From Desulfobacterales bacterium (GTDB lineage: Bacteria > Desulfobacterota > Desulfobacteria > Desulfobacterales > SpSt-501): DNA of 32,450 nt. Shown here piece after piece: positions 8,830 to 19,140 of the stretch (position 1 is the first letter of the stretch; every line of letters starts with the position of its first letter). Under the pieces are notes generated by a model. That model saw only the letters and a program-made list of their open reading frames with translations. It was not told where the DNA came from and ran no database searches. The stretch lies in contig JAUQXK010000043.1 of NCBI GenBank assembly GCA_030834695.1, forward strand, positions 1-32,450. The letters are read 5' to 3'. The translations under genes were made by a program, and so were the position numbers.

Positions 8830-10047
8830 ATGCCGCTGGCTTTCGTGGACGGACGGGTCGTGGTTGGAAACGGAAAGGTCTTGGAGCGGGCCTCCGTGCT
8901 AGTCGAGGGGGATCGCATCGCCAAGGTGGCGGCCAGAAATTTTAAAACCCCCAAAAATTGCCCCCGCATTTCGCTTCGAGGCGGCACGCTTCTGCCCGGG
9001 TTCATCGACGCCCATGTTCACCTCTGCCTGGATGGAAGCCCGGACCCGATGACTTCCCTGTTGAATGCGCCGCCGGTCGTATCCACCCTGAAAGCTGCCA
9101 ACTTTGCGCATGCGACCCTCATGGCCGGGGTGACCACCATCCGTGACATGGGATCAAAGGACGGGATCGATTTCGGCCTGAGACAGGCGATCCGCGCCGG
9201 CATCGTGCCCGGCCCGCGCATGCTGGTGAGCGGGCAGCTGATCTGCATGACCGGAGGGCACGGCTGGCAACAGGGCCGCGAGGCCAACGGTCCGGAGGAG
9301 GTTCGCAAGGCCGCTCGGGAGCAGATCAAGGCGGGCGCCGACCTCGTCAAGCTGATGGCGACCGGCGGCGTGCTCACGCCGGCGGTCGAACCGGGGAGCG
9401 AGCAGTTCACCGAGGCGGAACTGCGCGCCGGCATTGAAGAGGCTCACAAGGCCGGCAAGAAAACCGCCACCCACGCCATGGGGACCCAGGGGATATTGAA
9501 TGCCCTGAGGGCCGGGATCGACAGCATCGAGCACGGGGTCTATCTCAACGACGAGGCGGTCGAGCTGATGCGGAAACGGGGCGTGGCGCTCATACCGACC
9601 CTGGCGGCGCTCTGCCAGATCGAATCCAACGGGGTCCGGGCCGGCATTCCCGCTTTCGCCGTTGAAAAGACCCTCAAGGTGAAACCGTTTCATCTGGCGA
9701 GCATCCGCCTGGCGCGCAAAGCCGGGGTTCCCATCGCCCTGGGAACGGATGCCGGAACGCCGTTCAACCGGCACGGCGAAAACCTGCAGGAAGTCAAACA
9801 CCTGGTACGGTACGGCGGCTTCTCGCCCCTGGAAGCCATCGAGGCCGGCACTCGGGTGGGCGCCCAGGTGCTCGGCCTGGAAAAAGAACTGGGGACCGTC
9901 GAAGCGGGGAAACTCGCCGACCTGGTGGTCGTGGACGGGGACCCTCTTGCCGACATCGACATTTTCCTTCAGCCCCCATCCATCCGCGTCGTTCTGCAAG
10001 GCGGCCGGATCGTCAAATCAAACCCCAAAGAGGAGGAACGAGGATGA
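8830..10047 (+). CDS. Metal-dependent amidohydrolase (imidazolonepropionase/prolidase-like)
   Basis: This is a 405-residue amidohydrolase-superfamily enzyme of the cytosolic Xaa-Pro dipeptidase/imidazolonepropionase-like group. The metal site is complete: His62 and His64 in GFIDAHVHL, Lys174 in DLVKLMATGG (probably carboxylated), His215 in TATHAMG, His235 in IEHG and Asp307 in LGTDAGT. The C-terminal GKLADLVVVDGDPL returns to the small beta-sandwich seen at the N-terminus. Relatives include dipeptidases with proline or arginine specificity and various lactam or amide hydrolases. Its stop overlaps the start of the binding-protein gene by four bases (ATGA), so it is co-translated with the peptide-type importer. 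The enzyme probably acts on what that importer brings in; this is inference. Confidence 0.88.
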   Translation: MPLAFVDGRVVVGNGKVLERASVLVEGDRIAKVAARNFKTPKNCPRISLRGGTLLPGFIDAHVHLCLDGSPDPMTSLLNAPPVVSTLKAANFAHATLMAGVTTIRDMGSKDGIDFGLRQAIRAGIVPGPRMLVSGQLICMTGGHGWQQGREANGPEEVRKAAREQIKAGADLVKLMATGGVLTPAVEPGSEQFTEAELRAGIEEAHKAGKKTATHAMGTQGILNALRAGIDSIEHGVYLNDEAVELMRKRGVALIPTLAALCQIESNGVRAGIPAFAVEKTLKVKPFHLASIRLARKAGVPIALGTDAGTPFNRHGENLQEVKHLVRYGGFSPLEAIEAGTRVGAQVLGLEKELGTVEAGKLADLVVVDGDPLADIDIFLQPPSIRVVLQGGRIVKSNPKEEERG

Positions 10048-11609
10048 GACAGTTGATGAACCGCTTCGGGAAAGTCCTGGCCATTGCGGTGCTGGCCGCC
10101 GCCGGTCTCTGGCCGGCGGCACCGTCCGCGCAGGCCCAGGGCAAAGAGATCAAGGAACTGGTCATCGCCATCGGGGTGGATGCCGACACGCTCAACCCGC
10201 AGGAGCAGACGACAACCCTCATCCAGAACATGTGCGACCTGATCTACGACGATTTGTTCTTTCAGGATCCGGCCGGCAAGCTTCACCCCCGGCTGGCCAC
10301 CAAATACGAGGTTTCGCCCGACGGTCTCACCTATACGCTGCATCTGCGCAAGGGGGTCAAGTTTTCCGACGGCACCGATTTCAACGCCGACGCCGTGAAG
10401 CTGACCTTCGAACGTGCCCTTGACCCCAAGCTGCGGGTGCCGTTGCGCTTCGCGATCGGCATGGTCAAGGAATGCGTGAAAATCGACGATCATACGGTCG
10501 CCCTGAAACTGAACTACCCCTTTGCCCCGCTGGGGCCGACGCTTTCCATGACGCTCGTATCCCCCATCAGCCCGGCGGCCATCCAGAAATACGGCGATGA
10601 GGTCCGCCAGCACCCCGTGGGCGCAGGGCCTTACATTCTCAAAGAATGGGTCAAGGGCGACCGCCTCGTCTTCGTGCGCAACGAAAACTACTACGGCGAA
10701 AAGCCGACGGTGGCCCAGATCACCTGGAAGATCGTCCCCGAGGACGCCACCCGGGAAGCCATGCTGCGGTCCGGACAGGTTCACGTCTGCTATAAGCCGC
10801 TGCCCTCCAATCTGGCCGCCCTCAAGGCCGATTCCGGCATTACGGTGGAAATGCCTCTCGACACCCGGACCATATTTATGGGACTGAACTGCCAGAAGGG
10901 CGTCACCGTGGACAAGAAAATCCGGCAGGCATTCAACTATGCCGTGGACAAGAAGGCCATCGTCAAGAAGATCCTCTTTGACACCGCCCAACCCATGGAC
11001 GGTCCGGTGTCGCCGGTCGTGTTCGGATACCAGAAGATGGACCAGTCTTACGACTACAACCCCGAGAAGGCCAAACAACTCCTGAAGGAAGCCAATTTCG
11101 ACTTCTCCAAGACCGTGGCAATGCGCACGCCCCAAGGCCGCTACCTGTTCGACAAGCAGGTGTCCGAAGCCGTTCAGGCTTACCTGCAGGCGATCGGCGT
11201 AAAGATCGAACTGCGGACCTACGACTGGCCGACGTATACAGCGGGCCTGCTCAAGCCTCTGGCTGAAACCGAGCTGGAAGTCTTCCTGCTCGGCTGGGGG
11301 CCGCTCATCCTGGATGCGGACATGGGCCTTTACGGGCAGTTCACCTGCGAGGTCAATCCCCCCAAGGGGCTCGGGTCGGCGTTTTACTGCGACGCGGAGT
11401 ATGACGCCATCATGAAGGACTCCCGCAAAGAGCAGGATCCCCAGAAGCGCCTGGACCTGCTGAAAAAGGCGTCGCAGAAGGTCTGGGACGACTGTCCTTG
11501 GATCTGGCTGCACGTCGAAAAGTTCGTCATCGCCTACTCGAGCAAAATCAAGGGCATGGTGGTGACGCCGACTGAAAAATTCTACCCGCAGTACGTCACC
11601 CTGAATTAG
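10044..11609 (+). CDS. dppA: Peptide-type ABC transporter substrate-binding protein (family 5)
   Basis: This is the periplasmic binding protein of the DppA/OppA/GsiB group (SBP_bac_5), 521 residues. An N-terminal signal peptide (about residues 1-31, ending SAQA) is followed by ELVIAIGVDADTLNPQEQTT, the usual start of the mature domain. LRKGVKFSDGTDFNADAVKLTFER is the family's signature block near residue 110, and VGAGPYILKEW lies near 190. The ATG is preceded by GAGG and overlaps the amidohydrolase stop. The family binds di- and oligopeptides, glutathione, nickel complexes, opines and other ligands, so the symbol marks family position only. A strong hairpin follows the stop at 11612-11655. 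Confidence 0.9.
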   Translation: MRQLMNRFGKVLAIAVLAAAGLWPAAPSAQAQGKEIKELVIAIGVDADTLNPQEQTTTLIQNMCDLIYDDLFFQDPAGKLHPRLATKYEVSPDGLTYTLHLRKGVKFSDGTDFNADAVKLTFERALDPKLRVPLRFAIGMVKECVKIDDHTVALKLNYPFAPLGPTLSMTLVSPISPAAIQKYGDEVRQHPVGAGPYILKEWVKGDRLVFVRNENYYGEKPTVAQITWKIVPEDATREAMLRSGQVHVCYKPLPSNLAALKADSGITVEMPLDTRTIFMGLNCQKGVTVDKKIRQAFNYAVDKKAIVKKILFDTAQPMDGPVSPVVFGYQKMDQSYDYNPEKAKQLLKEANFDFSKTVAMRTPQGRYLFDKQVSEAVQAYLQAIGVKIELRTYDWPTYTAGLLKPLAETELEVFLLGWGPLILDADMGLYGQFTCEVNPPKGLGSAFYCDAEYDAIMKDSRKEQDPQKRLDLLKKASQKVWDDCPWIWLHVEKFVIAYSSKIKGMVVTPTEKFYPQYVTLN

Positions 11610-11611
11610 GT

Positions 11612-11655
11612 GCCGGGCGGGGGGCCGGGTTCTACCCGTCCGGCCTCCCGCCGGC
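11612..11655 (+). promoter_or_regulatory. GC-rich hairpin between dppA and dppB
   Basis: Arms gccgggcggggggccgg (11612-11628) and ccggcctcccgccggc (11640-11655) pair almost perfectly across an 11-nt loop, starting three bases after the dppA stop. No T-run follows, so it is not a standard terminator. In operons with a binding protein first, such a hairpin commonly guards the 3' end of the upstream message, giving an excess of binding protein. Confidence 0.65.
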
Positions 11656-11682
11656 ATTCGCACGCCACCGAGTGCGGTATCG

Positions 11683-12603
11683 ATGCTGAATTACGTCATC
11701 AAACGGCTCTTTTCGATGATCCCCGTACTCGTCGGGATTTCGATTCTGCTGTTCTTCATGCTGCGCATGCTGCCCGGCGACCCCGCGCAGGTGCTCGCCG
11801 GGCAGATGGCGTCTCCCGAGGAAATCGAGACGATCCGAAAACAGCTCGGCCTGGATCGGCCGGTTTACGAGCAGTACCTTTCCTACCTCGGACGCCTCGT
11901 GCGCCTGGACCTGGGCCGCTCCGCCCGCACTCAGAACCCGGTCATCGAGGAGATCTGGGCCCGGCTGCCGAACACGGCGCTGCTGGCCGTCGTGGCCATC
12001 GGTCTGGCCTGCCTGTTCGGGATCCCCGCCGGGGTGATCTCGGCCGTGCGGCCCTACACCTGGGTGGACTATGCCGTGACGATGGGGGCCCTTTTCGGAA
12101 TATCCATGCCGGTCTTCTGGCTGGGGCTCATGCTGGTGGTGGTTTTCGCCGTTGTCCTGCGGTGGCTTCCGGCGGGCGGCACGGGAAGCTGGCAGCATGT
12201 GGTGCTTCCGTCGGTGACCCTGGCCTCTTTTGTGGTGGCGTTCATCGCCCGCATGACGCGCTCCACCATGCTCGAAACGCTCTCCCTGGACTATATCAGC
12301 ACCGCCCGTTCCAAGGGCCTGAAGGAAGAGGTCGTGGTCATCAAGCATGCGCTCAAGAACGCGCTCATCCCCATTGTGACGGTGGTGGGGCTCCAGTTCG
12401 GCCTGCTTCTCGGCGGGGCCGTTTTGACCGAGACCGTCTTTGCCTGGCCGGGCATCGGACGGCTGATCGTGGATTCCATTCTGGCCCGCGACTATCCCGT
12501 GATCCAGGGAACCATCCTCATTTTCGGATTGCTTTACATTCTGGTGAATCTGGCCGTCGATATCCTGTACGTCGTGATCGACCCGCGCATCCGCTATGAG
12601 TGA
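11683..12603 (+). CDS. dppB: Peptide-type ABC transporter permease DppB
   Basis: This is an inner-membrane permease with the DppB/OppB layout, 306 residues. The N-terminal helix LNYVIKRLFSMIPVLVGISILLFFMLRMLPGDPA carries the standard RLLPGDP-type motif. The LGLDRPVYEQYLSYLGRLVRLDLGRS block follows, then the TM core and the EAA loop YISTARSKGLKEEVVVIKHALKNALIPIVT. The C-terminus ends with FVDILYVVIDPRIRYE-like sequence. It overlaps dppC by eight bases. It would form the membrane channel with DppC. Confidence 0.94.
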   Translation: MLNYVIKRLFSMIPVLVGISILLFFMLRMLPGDPAQVLAGQMASPEEIETIRKQLGLDRPVYEQYLSYLGRLVRLDLGRSARTQNPVIEEIWARLPNTALLAVVAIGLACLFGIPAGVISAVRPYTWVDYAVTMGALFGISMPVFWLGLMLVVVFAVVLRWLPAGGTGSWQHVVLPSVTLASFVVAFIARMTRSTMLETLSLDYISTARSKGLKEEVVVIKHALKNALIPIVTVVGLQFGLLLGGAVLTETVFAWPGIGRLIVDSILARDYPVIQGTILIFGLLYILVNLAVDILYVVIDPRIRYE

Positions 12604-13486
12604 AGAGACCGAACCGAATGTCTGCCGGCCGGCAGAGCTCCCGTCCGAAAACCGCTGGCGGCGCTTCTGGGTAAAGCTGCGGCGCAACAAGGCAGCTGTC
12701 GCCGGAGGCGTCCTGCTGTTGCTTTATGTTTTCTGTGCTCTGCTGGCACCGGTTCTCTTCCGGGGGGATCCGGCGGCCCCGAACCTGATCCTGGCGTTAG
12801 AGCCGCCTTCCTTCAAGGACCCGCTGGGAACGGACGAGCTGGGGCGCTCCATTCTCGGACGCGTCATCTATGGCGCGCGGATTTCCCTGCTGATCGCCGT
12901 CGGGGTGATCGCCGTCGGTCTTTTGATCGGCGTGCCGCTCGGTCTGATTTCCGGGTTCTTCGGCGGCAAAGTCGATTTTCTCATCCAGCGGGCGACCGAC
13001 GCCATGCTGGCGTTTCCCGGTTTTCTGCTGGCGCTCGCCCTGGTTTCGGTTCTGGGGGTTGGAATCAACAACACGGTCATCTCCATCGGCATCAGCATGA
13101 TTCCGCTCTACATCCGGCTGGTGCGAAGTTGCGTCCTCACGGTGCGGGAGGAGGTCTACGTGGAGGCCGCCCGGGCGGCCGGCACCCGCGACGGAATGAT
13201 CCTGCTTCGGCACATCCTGCCGAACGTGATGGTGCCTATTACCGTTCAGACGAGCCTGGGAATGGGAACCGCGATCCTCTTTGCCGCCGGCCTCGGCTTT
13301 CTGGGAATCGGGGTGCAGCCGCCCACGCCCGAATGGGGGGCTATGCTGGGCTCCGCGCGCGCGTATCTGTTCAACGCCCCGCACGTCGCGACATTTCCCG
13401 GCATCGCTATTTTCCTGGCCGTCCTGAGCTTCAACCTGCTCGGCGACGGGTTGCGGGATGCCCTAGACCCGCGGTTCAAAATATGA
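12596..13486 (+). CDS. dppC: Peptide-type ABC transporter permease DppC
   Basis: This is the second permease, 296 residues. A cytoplasmic N-terminus is followed by RFWVKLRRNKAAVAGGVLLLLYVFCALLAP, the OppC_N segment. Next come HPLGTDELGRSILGRVIYGARISL-like sequence (here DPLGTDELGRS) and the EAA loop YVEAARAAGTRDGMILLRHILPNVMVPI. The C-terminus reads GDGLRDALDPRFKI, the canonical DppC ending, so the protein is complete. The start lies inside dppB. The next gene, dppD, is 156 bp away because element B occupies the spacer. Confidence 0.94.
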   Translation: MSEETEPNVCRPAELPSENRWRRFWVKLRRNKAAVAGGVLLLLYVFCALLAPVLFRGDPAAPNLILALEPPSFKDPLGTDELGRSILGRVIYGARISLLIAVGVIAVGLLIGVPLGLISGFFGGKVDFLIQRATDAMLAFPGFLLALALVSVLGVGINNTVISIGISMIPLYIRLVRSCVLTVREEVYVEAARAAGTRDGMILLRHILPNVMVPITVQTSLGMGTAILFAAGLGFLGIGVQPPTPEWGAMLGSARAYLFNAPHVATFPGIAIFLAVLSFNLLGDGLRDALDPRFKI

Positions 13487-13500
13487 CGGCCTGGCCGGAA

Positions 13501-13600
13501 GCCCAATTTCTGCGTTGCGCTTCATCCCGCGGTCACTGCGGCGTACGGGGCGTACGCCTCGGGACGCGGGACTCGCGCGCCTTGAACTTGAGCGTTGGGC
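13501..13600. repeat. Palindromic element B in the dppC-dppD spacer
   Basis: A palindromic element of about 100 bp has short ends gcccaa/ttgggc. Inside is a stem TCCCGCG/CGCGGGA around a central hairpin GGCGTAC-5 nt-GTACGCC. Read in operon direction it aligns along its length with element A (4514-4638), sharing tgcgttgcgcttc-type and actcgcgcgccttgaacttg blocks. The two differ in stem bases that change in pairs. It begins 15 bp after the dppC stop and ends 42 bp before the dppD ATG. No coding potential is seen. Confidence 0.85.
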
Positions 13601-13642
13601 CCAGCCGTCGGGAAAAAGCGTGTTCTCTGGAAGCTTCGATAG

Positions 13643-14629
13643 ATGACCGTCAACGCTGAACCGCTCCTGCGCGTCGAGAATCTGTATACGCGCTTCGATA
13701 CCATGGACGGCGTGGTGACCGCCGTGGACGGGATCGACTTCGATGTGCATGCGGGCGAGACGCTGGGGTTGGTGGGTGAAAGCGGCTGCGGCAAGAGCGT
13801 GACCGCGCTCTCGATCCTTCGGCTGCTGCGGTGTCCGCCCGCTCGCATCGAGGGCCGGATCCTTTTCGGAGGACGGGACCTGTTGCAACTCGACGCGGAT
13901 GCGGTGCGGTCCGTAAGGGGCCGCGAGATTTCCATGATCTTCCAGGAACCGATGACTTCCCTGAATCCGGTGCTCGCCATCGGCGAGCAGGTCGCGGAAG
14001 GCGTGCGTCTGCATCAACGGCTGTCCCGCCGGGAATCCTGGCAGCGCGCGGTGGAAATGCTTCAGAAGGTTCAGATCCCAAGCCCGGAGATCCGGGCGGC
14101 CCAGTATCCGCATAAGTTTTCAGGCGGGATGCGGCAACGGGCCATGATCGCGATGGCGCTATCCTGCGGGCCGAAACTGATCCTGGCCGATGAACCCACG
14201 ACCGCGCTGGACGTCACCATCCAGGCCCAGATCATGAGCCTCATGATGCAGCTCAAGCAAGAGCTGAACACGGCGATCGTCCTGATTACGCATGACCTGG
14301 GGATTGTCGCCGAAACGGCCAGCCGCGTGATCGTCATGTACGCCGGCCAAATCATGGAAGAGGCCCCGGTGCGGGACTTGTTCAAGGACCCCCGGCACCC
14401 CTACACCCGGGGCCTGTTGGGCTCCGTGCCGGTGATCGGCAGAGGCCAGCGGCCCAATCGGCGGCTGCAGGAAATTCCGGGAATGGTCCCCAGCCCCCTG
14501 CGCATGCCGGCCGGCTGCCGGTTCCATCCGCGCTGCCCGCAGGTCGCGCCGAGGTGCTGCCATGAAGCTCCGCCCATGGTCTTGCTCGGCGAACACCGCC
14601 GGGTCCGCTGTTGGCTGGAAACGGTGTAG
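13643..14629 (+). CDS. dppD: Peptide-type ABC transporter ATP-binding protein DppD
   Basis: This is the first ATPase of the peptide-type importer, 328 residues. Motifs are Walker [10 protein letters not shown] (about residues 47-55), Q-loop [17 protein letters not shown], signature [15 protein letters not shown], Walker [15 protein letters not shown] and H-loop [11 protein letters not shown]. The C-terminal oligopeptide-transporter domain contains GCRFHPRCP and nearby cysteines, which in this family can hold an Fe-S cluster. The ATG has GGAAG about a dozen bases upstream. It follows element B and is seven bases from the dppF start. Confidence 0.94.
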
Positions 14630-14636
14630 AGAACGC

Positions 14637-15593
14637 ATGGCGCTGCTCGAAGTCGAAAACCTCAAGAAATACTTTCCGGTTCAAAAGGGCGTCTTGAACC
14701 GGACCGTCGGCTATGTCAAAGCGGTGGACGACGTCAGCTTCAGCCTGAAGCGCGGGGAAACCCTCGGACTGGTCGGCGAAAGCGGCTGCGGAAAGACCAC
14801 GGTCGGACGCTGTCTGCTGCGGCTGATCGAGCCGACGGCCGGTCGCGTGGCCTTCAACGGCCAGAACCTGCTTGAACTCGATCGCGGAGAGATGCTCAAA
14901 ATCCGGGCGTCTTTCCAGATCATTTTTCAGGATCCGTTTTCTTCTCTGAACCCGCGCATGAACGTGGGCGATATCATTGCCGAGCCCATTCGCAACCATT
15001 TAAAGATCTCTGCCGCTGAAACCCGGCAGCGGGTGGCGCACCTCATGCACCGCGTGGGCCTGCACACGGCAACCATGAACCGGTATCCGCATGAGTTCTC
15101 CGGCGGGCAGCGCCAGCGCATCGGCATCGCGCGCGCGCTGGCCTTGAACCCCAAGGTCATCGTCTGCGACGAGCCGGTTTCGGCCCTGGATGTATCCATT
15201 CAAGCCCAGGTCATCAACCTGCTGGCCCAGCTCCAGGAGCAGCTGGACCTTTCCTATATTTTCATCGCCCATGATCTGAGCGTCGTGGAGCACATCAGCG
15301 ACCGCGTGGCGGTGATGTACCTCGGCCGCATCGTAGAAGTCGCCACGGCCGAAGCGCTTTATTCGAACCCGCTGCACCCTTACAGCCGGGCCCTGATGTC
15401 GGCGGTGCCGATTCCCGACCCCGACCTGCGCCGTGAGAAGATCCTGCTTCCCGGTGATGTGCCGAGCCCGTTCAACCCGCCTCCGGGCTGCAATTTCCAC
15501 CCGCGCTGTTTTGTCCGCCAGGACCGCTGCGCACGGGAAACCCCTATTCTGAGGGATGTGGGGGACGGCCACCAGGTGGCCTGCCATTTATGA
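14637..15593 (+). CDS. dppF: Peptide-type ABC transporter ATP-binding protein DppF
   Basis: This is the second ATPase, 318 residues from the ATG at 14637, seven bases after dpp[19 protein letters not shown] is the normal DppF start. An in-frame ATG 75 bases further upstream lies inside dppD and would add an unrelated tail. Motifs are Walker [11 protein letters not shown]-loop [12 protein letters not shown], signature [15 protein letters not shown], Walker [15 protein letters not shown] and H-loop [12 protein letters not shown]. The C-terminal GCNFHPRC cysteine region is present. Its TGA stop lies at the first bases of a small inverted repeat (15591-15643) that separates it from the convergent aromatic gene. 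Confidence 0.94.
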
Positions 15594-15677: not shown

Positions 15678-17549
15678 TCAATAGCAGCCGAGTATTTTGA
15701 GGTACTCGCTCCGATCGATGATTTCCTTGCGCACCGCCGCCAGCTCCGGCGACTCCAGGTCGGCCTCCAGGTCGATGTAGAACATGTACCTCCAGGGCTC
15801 GCCGGGGATCGGCCGGGACTCCAACTTGATCATGTTGATCTGGTTGTCGGCGAAGACGCGCAGGATGGCGAACAACGCGCCGGGCTCGTTGCGCGCCGAG
15901 CAGATGAGCGATGTCTTGGCGGCCTTGCGGGGTTCGATGGGTTCCCGGCCGACGACCACAAACCGCGTGTAGTTGCGCGGGTTGGTTTCGATGCCTTCGG
16001 CGATGACCGTCAGCCCGTAGGCCTCCGCTGCGGCGATGTTGGCGATGGCCGCATCCCCGGGGCTTTCGGAGCCGCTCACGCGTTCGGCGGCGCCCGCAGT
16101 GTCGCTGACGGCGACGAGCTCCCAGCTGTGCTGCTCCAGGAACTGGCGGCACTGCTCGAACGCCTGGGGGTGCGATAGCACTCGCTTGACCGCGGCGAGG
16201 TCGGTGCCGGGCTTGGCGAGCAGGTTGTGCAGGATGCGGATCTTGATCTCGCCGATGATGCGCAGATCGTATTCGCGCAGCAAGTCGTAGTTCTCGTGAA
16301 TGCTGCCGGAAAGCGAGTTTTCGAGGGGTACGATCCCGTTGTCGGCCCCTCCGGTTTTTACGGCTTCGAAGATGGACTGGAAGGTCGGCATCGGCACCGC
16401 CTCGGCCGCCTCGCCGAAGTATTGCAGGCAGGCCTTGTGGCTGAAGGTTCCGATGCGGCCCACAAAGGCGGCGCGCCGCCGGGCCGTTCCGGTCCGGCGC
16501 TTGCGTTCGATCAGCTGCACCCGGTCGAGATGAGCGAAGTCGAGCTGTTTGCCGATGACGGGCGCGATGACGTAGATATCCCGCATGAGCTGGCGGAACT
16601 GGTGCGGGTACAGGCTCTGGGGACCGTCCGAGAGCGCGTGGTCCGGATCGTGGTGCACCTCGATCATCAGGCCGTCCGCGCCGGCGGCGACGGCCGCGCG
16701 CGCCATGGGGCTGACCTTTTCGCGCATACCGGTGGCGTGGCTCGGGTCCACCACGATGGGCAGGTGCGTCAGCTTCTTGAGCACCGGAATCGCGGACAGG
16801 TCCAGAGTGTTGCGGGTGTAGGGTTCGAAGGTGCGGATCCCGCGCTCGCAGAGCACCACCTGGCTGTTGCCTTCCGACAGGATATATTCGGCGGACATGA
16901 GCCATTCTTCGATCGTCCCCGCCAGCCCGCGCTTGAGCAGTACGGGTTTGCCCATCCGGCCCGCGCACTTGAGCAGCTCGAAATTCTGCATGTTGCGGGC
17001 GCCGATCTGGACGACGTCGATGTACTTCATCATCAGGTCGGCCTGGGACGGGGAGGTCATCTCGGTGACCACGCGGATGCCGAGCGCCTCGCGCACCTCG
17101 GCCAAAATTTTGAGGCCCTGTTCCTCCATGCCCTGGAACGAATAGGGCGAGGTGCGCGGTTTGAACGCCCCCCCGCGGAACAAAGCCGCCCCGGCTTTCT
17201 TGACCTCCCGGGCGATGGTGAGGGTCTGCTCCAGGCTTTCAACCGCGCAGGGCCCGGCGACAACGGCGATGTTCTCCCCGCCGATGACCACATCGCCCAC
17301 CCGCACCAGCGTATCCTGCGGGTGCATCTCCCGCCCGACCAGCTTGTAGGGGGTCCTAACGCGAACCACCTTCGCAACTCCCGGAAATCGCCGCAGCTCA
17401 TCCTCCTCGACCCCGGGCTTTCCGAGAATGCCGATGCGTTCGGCTTCGGTCGGCGGCAGTTCCCGGCAATCGCAGTGCTTGGCCTTCAGCTTGCGGATGA
17501 GATCCGCCTTGCCCTCCGGCGTCAGGTCCTTGTCCAGTTCCAGAATCAT
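15678..17549 (-). CDS. Fused DAHP synthase-prephenate dehydratase-ACT protein
   Basis: This 623-residue fusion joins two steps of aromatic synthesis. Residues 1-70 are a ferredoxin-like regulatory domain of the Thermotoga-type DAHP synthase. Residues about 85-335 are type Ibeta DAHP synthase (PEP plus erythrose 4-phosphate), with [18 protein letters not shown] and the four metal ligands Cys101, His271, Glu297 and Asp308. Residues about 360-535 are prephenate dehydratase, starting [11 protein letters not shown] and ending in the catalytic NYTRF motif (Thr528-Arg529-Phe530). Residues about 545-620 are an ACT domain with GALF and ESRP, the Phe-binding motifs. There is no chorismate mutase domain. 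The start at 17549 has GGAGAGAGG upstream; an ATG at 17597 lies in the attenuator hairpin. A phenylalanine attenuator precedes it, so control is probably both allosteric and transcriptional. Confidence 0.93.
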
Positions 17550-17596
17550 GAATCCTCTCTCCTTGCTGTCTTGGCACGTAATGGCTTCAAAATGCA

Positions 17597-17627
17597 TTAA
17601 GCCCCGAGGCTAGGTCTCGGGGCTTAA
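17597..17627 (-). terminator. Attenuator terminator hairpin upstream of the aromatic fusion gene
   Basis: A perfect 12-bp stem (ttaagccccgag/ctcggggcttaa) with a 7-nt loop is followed on the transcribed strand by TGCATTTTG. The T-run is short and slightly displaced, so termination may be partial. Its 5' arm and loop (AGACCTA, 17611-17617) can alternatively pair with TAGGTCT (17648-17654) in the preceding strand. Confidence 0.7.
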
Positions 17628-17690
17628 CGAACCGCGAAGCTCCGGACAGACCTACATCGGTCCATCCGGGGCTGTATGTCAGGGATTGAA

Positions 17691-17747
17691 CTACCGGCCC
17701 GGATGGACGCTTCTAAACCAGCAAAAACCAAAGAAGCGTCCCATCAT
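17691..17747 (-). CDS. Phe-rich leader peptide of the aromatic fusion gene
   Basis: An 18-codon frame reads MMGRFFGFCWFRSVHPGR and stops with TAG. Four of 18 residues are Phe and one is Trp, clustered at positions 5-11 as FFGFCWF. These codons lie in strand 1 and the loop of the first leader hairpin, as in pheA-type leaders. The stop codon falls just past strand 2, so a finishing ribosome would cover it. The ribosome binding site is weak (only a GTGGA about 15 bases upstream). It begins about 27 bases after the probable transcription start. Confidence 0.72.
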   Translation of the reverse strand: MMGRFFGFCWFRSVHPGR

Positions 17748-17781
17748 GTTCGAACGTGTCCACTGTTTAAATTTTTCCCCA

Positions 17782-17810
17782 GCTTTAGGTAAATTCGATC
17801 CGGCTGTCAA
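17782..17810 (-). promoter_or_regulatory. Candidate promoter of the leader and aromatic fusion gene
   Basis: On the minus strand a perfect TTGACA -35 (17805-17810), a 17-bp spacer and TAAAGC (17782-17787, weak -10) lie just upstream of the leader peptide. The repeat copy at 17821-17907 abuts it on the upstream side. Confidence 0.55.
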
Positions 17811-17820
17811 GAACTGTTTT

Positions 17821-17907
17821 TATTGCTCTGGCAAGTGAACAGGTGCAACTTGAGCCGCCGATGAAGGAAATGGCCGAATTAGACAAATTGTATTGCCGGA
17901 GTAATAG
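17821..17907 (+). repeat. MITE-like repeat, copy 1, 28 bp past the lipoprotein gene stop
   Basis: A sequence of about 87 bp aligns with the reverse complement of 19166-19253. Shared blocks, in order, are ctctggcaagtgaa-like, aggtgcaac, gagcc, gccgatga, atggccg, and ttgccggagtaata at the end. A deletion of about 6-8 bp accounts for most of the length difference. Its ends are imperfect inverted repeats of the form tgactccggcaagtga / ttgccggagtaat. No reading frame is present. Confidence 0.8.
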
Positions 17908-17934
17908 CGCACCGGCTGCCGGCGCGTGAAGCTT

Positions 17935-19140
17935 TCAGGGTTTGATCATTTCCTTGAATTTTTCTCCGGTTGCGCTGAGGACCCCCTTGAGGATATTTTC
18001 ATCGGCCACCCGGTCGCTCATTTTCATGCGTTCACCGGGGTCGAGCCGGCTGGTATCCGCGCTGTAATCGATGTAGCCGTATAGGTATTTCATCCAGAAA
18101 AACGAGCAGAACTCGGCGTCGATATGATGGGCCAGGTTCACCACCAGATCGATGAAATGCTCGTCGAGCGGCTGCCAAAAGGAATACATATCCCGACCGA
18201 ACGCCTCCACGGGGGAAATGCGGCTGAGGTCCCGGCCCCAGGCCTTGTAGAGCCAGGCCTCGCCGATGGCGAGTCCTTTGCCGTGGGAGCGGGCGATGTC
18301 CGCCGCTTTAATTGCCCGTTCGGCGGCGAAGCCGTACTGAATCGGATAGATGTGCAGATCGAGGTAATCCAGCTCCGGGATCTCGGCCAAGGCCTTGAAA
18401 TACTCCAGCGCGGTCCAGGTCCCGGCGCCGGCCCCGAACCTGATTCCCGGCTGCTTTAAGTCGCGAGCCACCCGTTTCACGACCGCTGCAAATTCGGCCG
18501 GAGAAAAAGCCAGCCCCGTGTTGCGGGTTTGGGTGTCCGGTTCGGACAACAGGGTCAGGTAGTCCGGCCGGATGTCGGCGATGACGGCTTCGGCCATCTC
18601 GCGCAGTCCGGCGCCGAAGCGCTCGCGGCTGAGCCCGCGGTAATCCGCCCCGATTCGGCTCAGTTCGGGTTCCCGGAAAGCCGATCCCATCGCGACCACG
18701 AGCGCCAGGCCCCGGCGGCGGATCTCGGCGGCCAGGCCGCGGTAAAAGGCCCGGTATTCGAGGGCTCGCGGATGGGCACCCGTCAGTATGGGGTGGTGCA
18801 AACTAAGGGACACGCAGCGCACGCCCAGAGCTTTCAGGCGGTCCAGCGTGAGCGCGCTCGCCGCCAATGCGTGCTCGTCCAGCAAGGCGTCTGCGCGGTG
18901 GCTGCCGGCCGCCAGTAGCTCCACCCCGAACGCCGTACGGCTCTTCTTTTGTTCCCAGGGAAGTGGAACGAGCGGTAGTTGCCGATGAAACTCCGCATCG
19001 AGTTCGCGGTAGATCATCTGAAAAGACTCCGGCACCTGTCCGGGTACGGCGTGCACGGGAACGGCCTCATGCACCCGCCGGCAGCCGACGGCTGTCACCA
19101 CGACCAGAATGACCATCGCGGCCAGGATCGGTTTTGACAT
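17935..19140 (-). CDS. Glycosidase-like TIM-barrel lipoprotein
   Basis: This is a 401-residue secreted lipoprotein. The signal ends in a lipobox VTAVGC with the lipidated Cys20. The rest reads as a glycoside-hydrolase clan A type barrel: LSLHHPILTG near residue 115, LLSEPDT with a candidate acid/base Glu200, LDLHIYPI near 263 and AIGEAW with a candidate nucleophile Glu294. The spacing between the two Glu is normal for such barrels. The nearest fold families are probably GH53-like or uncharacterised cellulase-like groups; I cannot assign one, and the substrate is unknown. The ATG has AGGAGG upstream. No partner gene adjoins it: both flanks are inverted copies of a short repeat, 28 and 25 bp from the gene ends, which suggests it may be a mobile or acquired unit. 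Confidence 0.75.
   Translation of the reverse strand: MSKPILAAMVILVVVTAVGCRRVHEAVPVHAVPGQVPESFQMIYRELDAEFHRQLPLVPLPWEQKKSRTAFGVELLAAGSHRADALLDEHALAASALTLDRLKALGVRCVSLSLHHPILTGAHPRALEYRAFYRGLAAEIRRRGLALVVAMGSAFREPELSRIGADYRGLSRERFGAGLREMAEAVIADIRPDYLTLLSEPDTQTRNTGLAFSPAEFAAVVKRVARDLKQPGIRFGAGAGTWTALEYFKALAEIPELDYLDLHIYPIQYGFAAERAIKAADIARSHGKGLAIGEAWLYKAWGRDLSRISPVEAFGRDMYSFWQPLDEHFIDLVVNLAHHIDAEFCSFFWMKYLYGYIDYSADTSRLDPGERMKMSDRVADENILKGVLSATGEKFKEMIKP

Follow-up and report, generated by a model that had tools for sequence, protein, structure and literature searches.

The minus-strand DNA in front of a fused DAHP synthase-prephenate dehydratase gene in the window (the whole stretch of Desulfobacterales DNA analysed here, 32,450 nt) is very probably a ribosome-mediated leader-peptide transcription attenuator that controls this gene. 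It is laid out as a chain of six segments, A to F, and would sense charged tRNA-Phe, possibly together with tRNA-Trp in the genus to which the window belongs. The Phe leader is an RNA element that lacks an Rfam family and has a definite two-state model. In many relatives a single position of the ribosome would, by this model, govern a pair of terminators.

The coordinates of the element and of its presumed target are collected in Table 1. The fusion gene was taken to start at the ATG at 17549 because a ribosome-binding site, AAGGAGAG, stands before it; the start at 17597, which gives the longest open reading frame (ORF), was rejected. Convergent with the fusion gene, oligopeptide/dipeptide ABC transporter genes (a solute-binding protein and two ATPases) occupy 10044-15593 of the plus strand. 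The Phe-rich leader of 18 residues announced by a first-pass annotation of this DNA was recovered both by direct reading and in the ORF translation. No strong Shine-Dalgarno sequence or ribosome-binding site was seen for this leader in the window.

Table 1. Features of the Phe leader and of its presumed target gene (window positions).
Feature	Position	Strand	Remarks
TTGACA, probable -35 element	17805..17810	minus	direct reading; recurrence upstream in relatives
Leader peptide MMGRFFGFCWFRSVHPGR*	17691..17747	minus	18 aa; 4 Phe + 1 Trp control codons; homologous Phe-rich frames in relatives
Segment A (GGACGCTTCT)	17732..17741	minus	within leader; its end = first two Phe codons
Segment B	17698..17714	minus	partner A (via 17714-17705) or C (via 17708-17698)
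Segment C	17659..17670	minus	partner B or D
Segment D	17637..17654	minus	partner C (17652-17642) or E (outer 17654-17648, inner 17644-17637)
Segment E (last hairpin, 5' arm plus loop)	17611..17629	minus	partner F (17629-17616) or D (17625-17618 + 17617-17611)
Segment F, 3' arm of terminator-like hairpin	17595..17608	minus	helix computation
CATTTTG, degraded U-tract behind F	17588..17594	minus	one of 3/53 leaders with fewer than 7 T in the 10 nt past the stem's last G/C
Helix A:B (1:2)	17741-17732/17714-17705	minus	10 bp
Helix B:C (2:3)	17708-17698/17670-17660	minus	11 bp
Helix C:D (3:4)	17669-17659/17652-17642	minus	11 bp including 2 G-U
Helix D:E, outer part (4:5)	17654-17648/17617-17611	minus	7 bp
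Helix E:F (terminator-like)	17629-17616/17608-17595	minus	14 pairs, 1 G-U; 12 bp if the two outermost pairs are left off
DAHP synthase (type I-beta)-prephenate dehydratase-ACT fusion gene, presumed target	15678..17549	minus	623 aa

The four pairings and the terminator-like hairpin that had been described for this region all lie where they were placed. The leader region packs into 161 nt four helices that reach 10 bp or more with no more than two G-U pairs each, a number equalled by none of 1,000 dinucleotide shuffles (mean 0.115, maximum 2). Folding of the minus-strand leader, suggested as a check, recovered these helices with an energy z of -6.2; an equally low energy was reached in 0 of 200 shuffles. 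The 7-bp pairing between strand 4 and the terminator arm is present, but it makes up only the outer half of a 14-bp D:E helix, whose inner, arm-to-arm part is the one conserved across aligned leaders. In a slightly longer fold of the window, the 14 pairs read UAGGUCU, a bulge GUC, CGG, an A.C mismatch and GCUU against AAGC, C and CCGAGACCUA.

The arrangement suggests the following mechanism. When Phe is short, the ribosome would stall at the Phe codons and cover A, so that B:C would form and D would be left free; free D would then pair with E, E:F would be blocked and transcription would continue. When Phe is ample, the ribosome would instead reach the stop codon and cover B, whereupon C:D and E:F would form and transcription would terminate. 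An untranslated leader would form A:B and be terminated likewise. The control codons lie at A and the stop codon (17693-17691) begins 5 nt past segment B, a placement by which the position of the ribosome is predicted to select the fold. Sequence and comparison show the leader, the six segments with their alternative pairings, the covariation and the recurrent TTGACA; stalling, termination and Phe as the signal are inferred.

Genome contigs were scanned for the fusion gene and the best 80 of 237 relatives were kept, among which its close relatives are mostly Desulfobacterales, Desulfobacteraceae or 'Deltaproteobacteria' assemblies. The 69 loci L031-L099, which match the fusion over both parts, run off the contig or match partially, were joined by ten whole-genome loci, giving 79 locus rows with the window's among them (L047 duplicates L011). 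A predicted short ORF with clustered codons for the pathway product, resembling G-R-F-F-F-x-F-R-S-V-H-P, precedes the fusion gene in 74 of the 79 rows, the window's included, 73 of them found by regular expression and one (L084) in the ORF list. Three of the leaderless rows (L039, L078 and L095) have merely 18-175 nt of upstream sequence; in the other two, L019 and L020, no Phe-rich leader was found within 600 nt upstream. A leader was also seen by eye at L009 and L012, which stand outside the 79 rows. Of the 73 rows found by regular expression, two were set aside, L050 because it has no E:F and L064 because of its runs of N, and removal of near-duplicates from the remaining 71 gave 53 aligned leaders. 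At L050, E and F are missing, other sequence follows segment D and C:D alone is left.

In 67 of the 71 rows with enough sequence, a TTGACA hexamer occurs at a distance of 20-150 nt before segment A, against 2.7 expected from shuffling. The promoter that had been proposed just upstream of the leader stands in this part, but its -10 element is poor: by our reading, the hexamer 17 nt downstream of the window's TTGACA is TAAAGC (17787-17782, minus strand), and a consensus scan of 17500-17940 returned neither a full promoter nor a canonical terminator.

E:F was delimited with a hairpin search whose score favours T-rich tails, and four of its ends were set by hand, which makes the E:F pairing and the U-tracts in part a product of the method; located in this way, E:F is followed by a U-tract (at least 7 T in 10 nt) in 50 of 53 leaders, with the window among the exceptions. 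In the 8 nt after C:D, at least 6 T were counted in 24 of the 53, 4-5 in 13, and fewer in 16, the window included. The earlier statement that hairpin 3:4 is not itself the terminator thus describes the window well, where C:D has no U-tract, but not the family, since in those 24 leaders 3:4 has its own U-tract and the layout is that of a tandem terminator.

Searched with a covariance model based on the 53 Phe leaders, 196 of the order's 291 genomes gave a match at E <= 0.01 (109 matches below 1e-15, by our count). In the phylum sample, 43 of 395 genomes, some of which belong to the order, were matched at E <= 1e-6. Among twenty hand-picked model matches, most of them weaker ones, are unfused aroF-pheA loci (L157-L159) as well as other leaders.

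Both proposed states covary across the 53 leaders. In the starved state (B:C + D:E), 96.9% of 900 cells are paired and 8 pairs changed two-sidedly; in the replete state (A:B + C:D + E:F), 94.8% of 1,481 cells are paired, with 15 two-sided pairs. Neither result was reached in any of 500 shuffles on any of the five measures. The structure was drafted from the window's own sequence, and slide controls favour it for that reason. A:B alone showed no two-sided change among the 53 leaders. D:E alone is paired in 94.1% of 371 cells, with two-sided change in 4 pairs and 27 cells; shuffles reached these two-sided pairs in 12, the two-sided cells in 0 and the further pair types in 141 of 500. Taken by itself, the covariation of D:E is therefore modest, weaker than that of the other helices. 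On a FastTree phylogeny of the fusion proteins, compensatory branch events exceeded the expected same-branch coincidences for B:C (4 versus 0.45), C:D (7 versus 2.1), D:E (4 versus 0.95) and E:F (18 versus 2.2), by our own sums. These data indicate that mutually exclusive terminator and antiterminator pairings are maintained by compensatory change, to a modest degree for D:E alone. A lack of Phe codons or of compensatory changes in the homologous upstream regions, which would have spoken against a Phe attenuator, was sought and did not emerge. The comparison lends support to the initial proposal that strand 4 acts as the antiterminator of a separate hairpin under Phe-attenuator logic.

D and E seem, from their sequences, to be tuned to one another, partly at the expense of C:D and E:F. 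The D:E column pair 114:158 is C-G in 21 of the 53 leaders, U-A in 19, U-G in 2 and something else in 11; G-U is tolerated between column 114 and C in 20 of the 53 leaders, and between column 158 and F in 7. The mean D:E energy of the 53 Phe leaders was -19.3 with the own partner and -17.0 with swapped partners, a value as low being found in 0 of 2,000 permutations. With this set of 53 and two further ones of 22 and 28 loci, the own E beat the E of other loci on mean D:E energy in all three, 0 of 2,000 permutations being as low in each (relatedness left in). On average, a D segment would find a better partner than its own E in 30-34% of the E segments of its set (30% in the Phe set). The window is such a case, the E segments of both L006 and L035 being better partners for its D than its own E. 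In these two loci the outer D:E is GCGGUCU/AGACCGC, doubly compensated at two positions, and adjoins the inner part on E without a break; L032, L033 and L034, also from the window's genus, are without the full 7-bp outer match. Among the loci from the local hairpin search upstream of ADH synthase and trpE (below), weak D:E was seen at four pairs (L183, L202, L206 and L221), partly through badly placed hairpin ends.

The two states were also examined by constrained folding. With A hidden and F absent, scored as at least 5 of 10 B:C pairs and at least 4 of 7 D:E pairs, B:C + D:E formed in 39 of 53 leaders, and the minimum-energy fold was a different one in 14. With B hidden, scored as at least 6 C:D and at least 8 E:F pairs, C:D + E:F formed in 49 of 53. 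The window gave 10/10 B:C and 4/7 D:E pairs in the former case, and 12/13 C:D and 10/10 E:F pairs in the latter. When F was present and A hidden, E:F still formed at minimum energy in 51 of 53 leaders; E:F wins at equilibrium, and read-through must therefore be kinetic. The same approach applied to Escherichia coli hisL yielded the same two states, B:C + D:E or C:D + E:F, and there too antitermination was not favoured at equilibrium with F present.

Three other explanations were weighed against the six-segment attenuator. One holds that the window genome carries a decayed attenuator, in which termination has been lost with the U-tracts after C:D and E:F and expression is constitutive, with its level fixed by some other control; we consider this a minor but appreciable prospect, and one compatible with the six-segment reading for the family. 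The window's tail past the last hairpin is ...CTTAATGCATTTTG, which has no proper U-tract, whereas in its closest relative (fusion protein 97% identical) it is ...CTTAATGTTTTTTTG; CATTTTG stands in the window where relative L031 has TTTTTTT, and only AGCTTCGCGG follows the window's C:D. Against decay, the leader and the helices are intact and the clear difference from L031 is limited to the tail, while Rho, or the weak tail together with a 14-pair stem, may still terminate. On the attenuator reading, termination in the window should be leakier than in relatives, since its last U-tract is poor. The lack of a good U-tract behind the window's terminator-like hairpin would also suit translational control, in which the last hairpin masks the ribosome-binding site of the fusion gene and transcription is not ended. 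This hairpin, however, ends at 17595, about 30 nt ahead of the AAGGAGAG at the gene start, and T-runs directly follow the last hairpin in 50 of 53 leaders, as located by the T-rewarding search. Hiding of the ribosome-binding site was rejected, the hairpin being too far from the start codon, and we regard translational control as highly improbable.

The element could also be a classical four-segment attenuator with C:D as its sole regulated hairpin, E:F being an unrelated or backup terminator or a spacer and its complementarity to D a by-product of duplication or homogenisation of terminators at the locus. The U-tract that C:D bears in 24 of 53 leaders, the single-terminator Phe leader upstream of pheA at L156 and the modest covariation of D:E by itself would fit such a design. 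Yet a constitutive E:F ahead of the gene would silence it in every state, and in the window E:F would be the only terminator, because C:D there has no U-tract. Many D segments, moreover, fit E better than C (U-A at D:E 114:158 in 19 of 53, G-U at the C:D pair sharing column 114 in 20 of 53), and on average the own D:E is better than swapped ones in three gene families. A four-segment attenuator is accordingly improbable, although less so than translational control, and the six-segment chain is the reading retained below.

In the pheL-pheA attenuator of E. coli, four segments are used and 3:4 is the terminator. Like the Phe leader it has, in its familiar layout, a leader with Phe codons that controls a prephenate dehydratase gene. 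The window departs from this four-segment type in its separate E:F, driven by D:E, and in a C:D without U-tract. The first-pass annotation was right to set the layout apart from E. coli pheA by its separate hairpin, but the design has a precedent. The his leader of E. coli and Salmonella (RF00514, His_leader) shares the six-segment chain, with His codons in place of Phe codons and in another lineage and gene, so the chain as such is already known; hisL C:D has no U-tract, whereas the Phe-leader C:D has one in 24 of 53. For the his leader, the available portion of a modelling paper (PMC1183508) places one more hairpin between pause hairpin and terminator and puts forward that basal read-through is reduced by it. 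What may be novel here is a coupled two-terminator gate across a whole lineage on the his layout, rather than a new class of mechanism.

No Rfam family matched at the gathering threshold in the window or in 13 whole loci (the window's included), while the hisL control scored 131.6 bits with RF00514. An Rfam-known element was rejected; the window's matches to sok, OxyS and two microRNA models were all far below gathering. Tandem terminators with a potential antiterminator are described for the rimP-leader of some Gammaproteobacteria in the accessible part of PMC2965389; they are serial as here, in another gene and lineage, and that part describes no leader peptide. Salmonella mgtCBR likewise has more than one attenuation step, its tandem attenuators relying on two short ORFs as two sensors according to the extract of PMC3641672, whereas one leader ORF apparently sets both hairpins here. 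Upstream of the Desulfovibrio vulgaris aroA'-aroB' cluster, a database-predicted attenuator is listed in the excerpted text of PMC1173090; this concerns aromatic biosynthesis in the same broad group, and the excerpt describes neither a leader peptide nor a chain. That prediction was the sole related item among the titles listed in searches of open PubMed Central papers, among which nothing was found on the Phe leader or the two-terminator chain.

The tandem design was at one stage taken for a Phe peculiarity, an idea dropped after surveys of the regions upstream of ADH synthase and trpE showed wider use. These surveys covered the 30 best-scoring loci per search, and their counts are raw, without shuffled control. 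An earlier counter, which folded the whole stretch, had given two terminators at just 2 of the 30 loci for ADH synthase and at 1 of the 30 for trpE; it was replaced by a local search because D:E and other pairings were judged to merge the two hairpins. With the local search, all 30 ADH-synthase loci (L171-L200) had an aromatic-rich leader and 22 of 30 had two or more U-tract hairpins; judged from these sequences, the alternative dehydroquinate pathway appears to have an attenuator too. The leader at L199 contains ...FYFYWYYYFSTGLPGV.... In front of trpE, 22 of 30 loci of the order (L201-L230) had a W-x-W or WW leader, and two or more U-tract hairpins were present at 20 of these 22. The corresponding counts for the phylum sample are a leader at 15 of 30 loci (two look spurious) and two or more such hairpins at 8 of the 15. 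Many trpE Trp leaders contain WWW, and D and E seem to co-change at these loci (GGTTC with GGATC in L213, GATCC with GGATC in L228).

On balance, we favour the existence of a common double gate across the order and somewhat into the phylum. One leader peptide would be followed by two serial U-tract terminators, with D:E formed by the 3' arm and U-tract of the first and the A-tract and 5' arm of the second, and one ribosome position would set both. Each entry enzyme would have its own sensor: Phe for the fusion, Tyr/Phe/Trp for ADH synthase and type I-alpha DAHP synthase, and Trp for the trp operon, while the window's genus may sense Phe and Trp. Should this double gate exist, the suggestion made for the his leader, that extra hairpins lower basal read-through (PMC1183508, as far as its available portion goes), becomes testable, and this lineage would be seen to control its aromatic-pathway entry enzymes through amino-acid-specific attenuators.

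Combined sensing of Phe and Trp in the window's genus is a guess, in keeping with its gene content and leader codons. The fusion is the only I-beta DAHP synthase match in 7 of 7 genomes of the genus (completeness 80-100%), whereas a second I-beta match above the family cut-off was present in 13 of 13 other fusion-bearing genomes; type II DAHP synthase was found in none of the 20 fusion-bearing genomes. Four of the seven genus genomes have a type I-alpha DAHP synthase (L291-L294); an aromatic leader stands before each, and three of these leaders are Tyr-rich. Every one of the seven fusion leaders in the genus (L001, L006 and L031-L035) carries 1-3 Trp codons amid the Phe codons, compared with 2 of 47 aligned leaders from outside the genus, not counting a motif-opening W in four of the 47.

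Several further leaders were noted. The Tyr-rich leaders at L291 and L292, before type I-alpha DAHP synthase, end in ...YYYFSTDLPAVR* and closely resemble ADH-synthase leaders, as though a single type of leader had passed from gene to gene. L156 lies before a chorismate mutase-prephenate dehydratase gene whose ORF follows 14 nt on; its Phe leader has one terminator only (C:D with a T-run) and is a possible simpler ancestor of the two-terminator form. A Phe/Tyr-rich leader at L142 precedes a protein without NCBIfam match, taken for an ACT-domain protein; L145 has hairpins before a similar ACT-like gene, where no Phe-rich leader was found, and L155 has a Phe-rich leader before phenylacetate-CoA ligase. 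These three loci may be a sign that Phe is made from phenylacetate. Before unfused DAHP synthase, L029 and L030 bear frames with YFSFFNYFWCW (mixed aromatic) and SWCWWWQSLW (Trp type).
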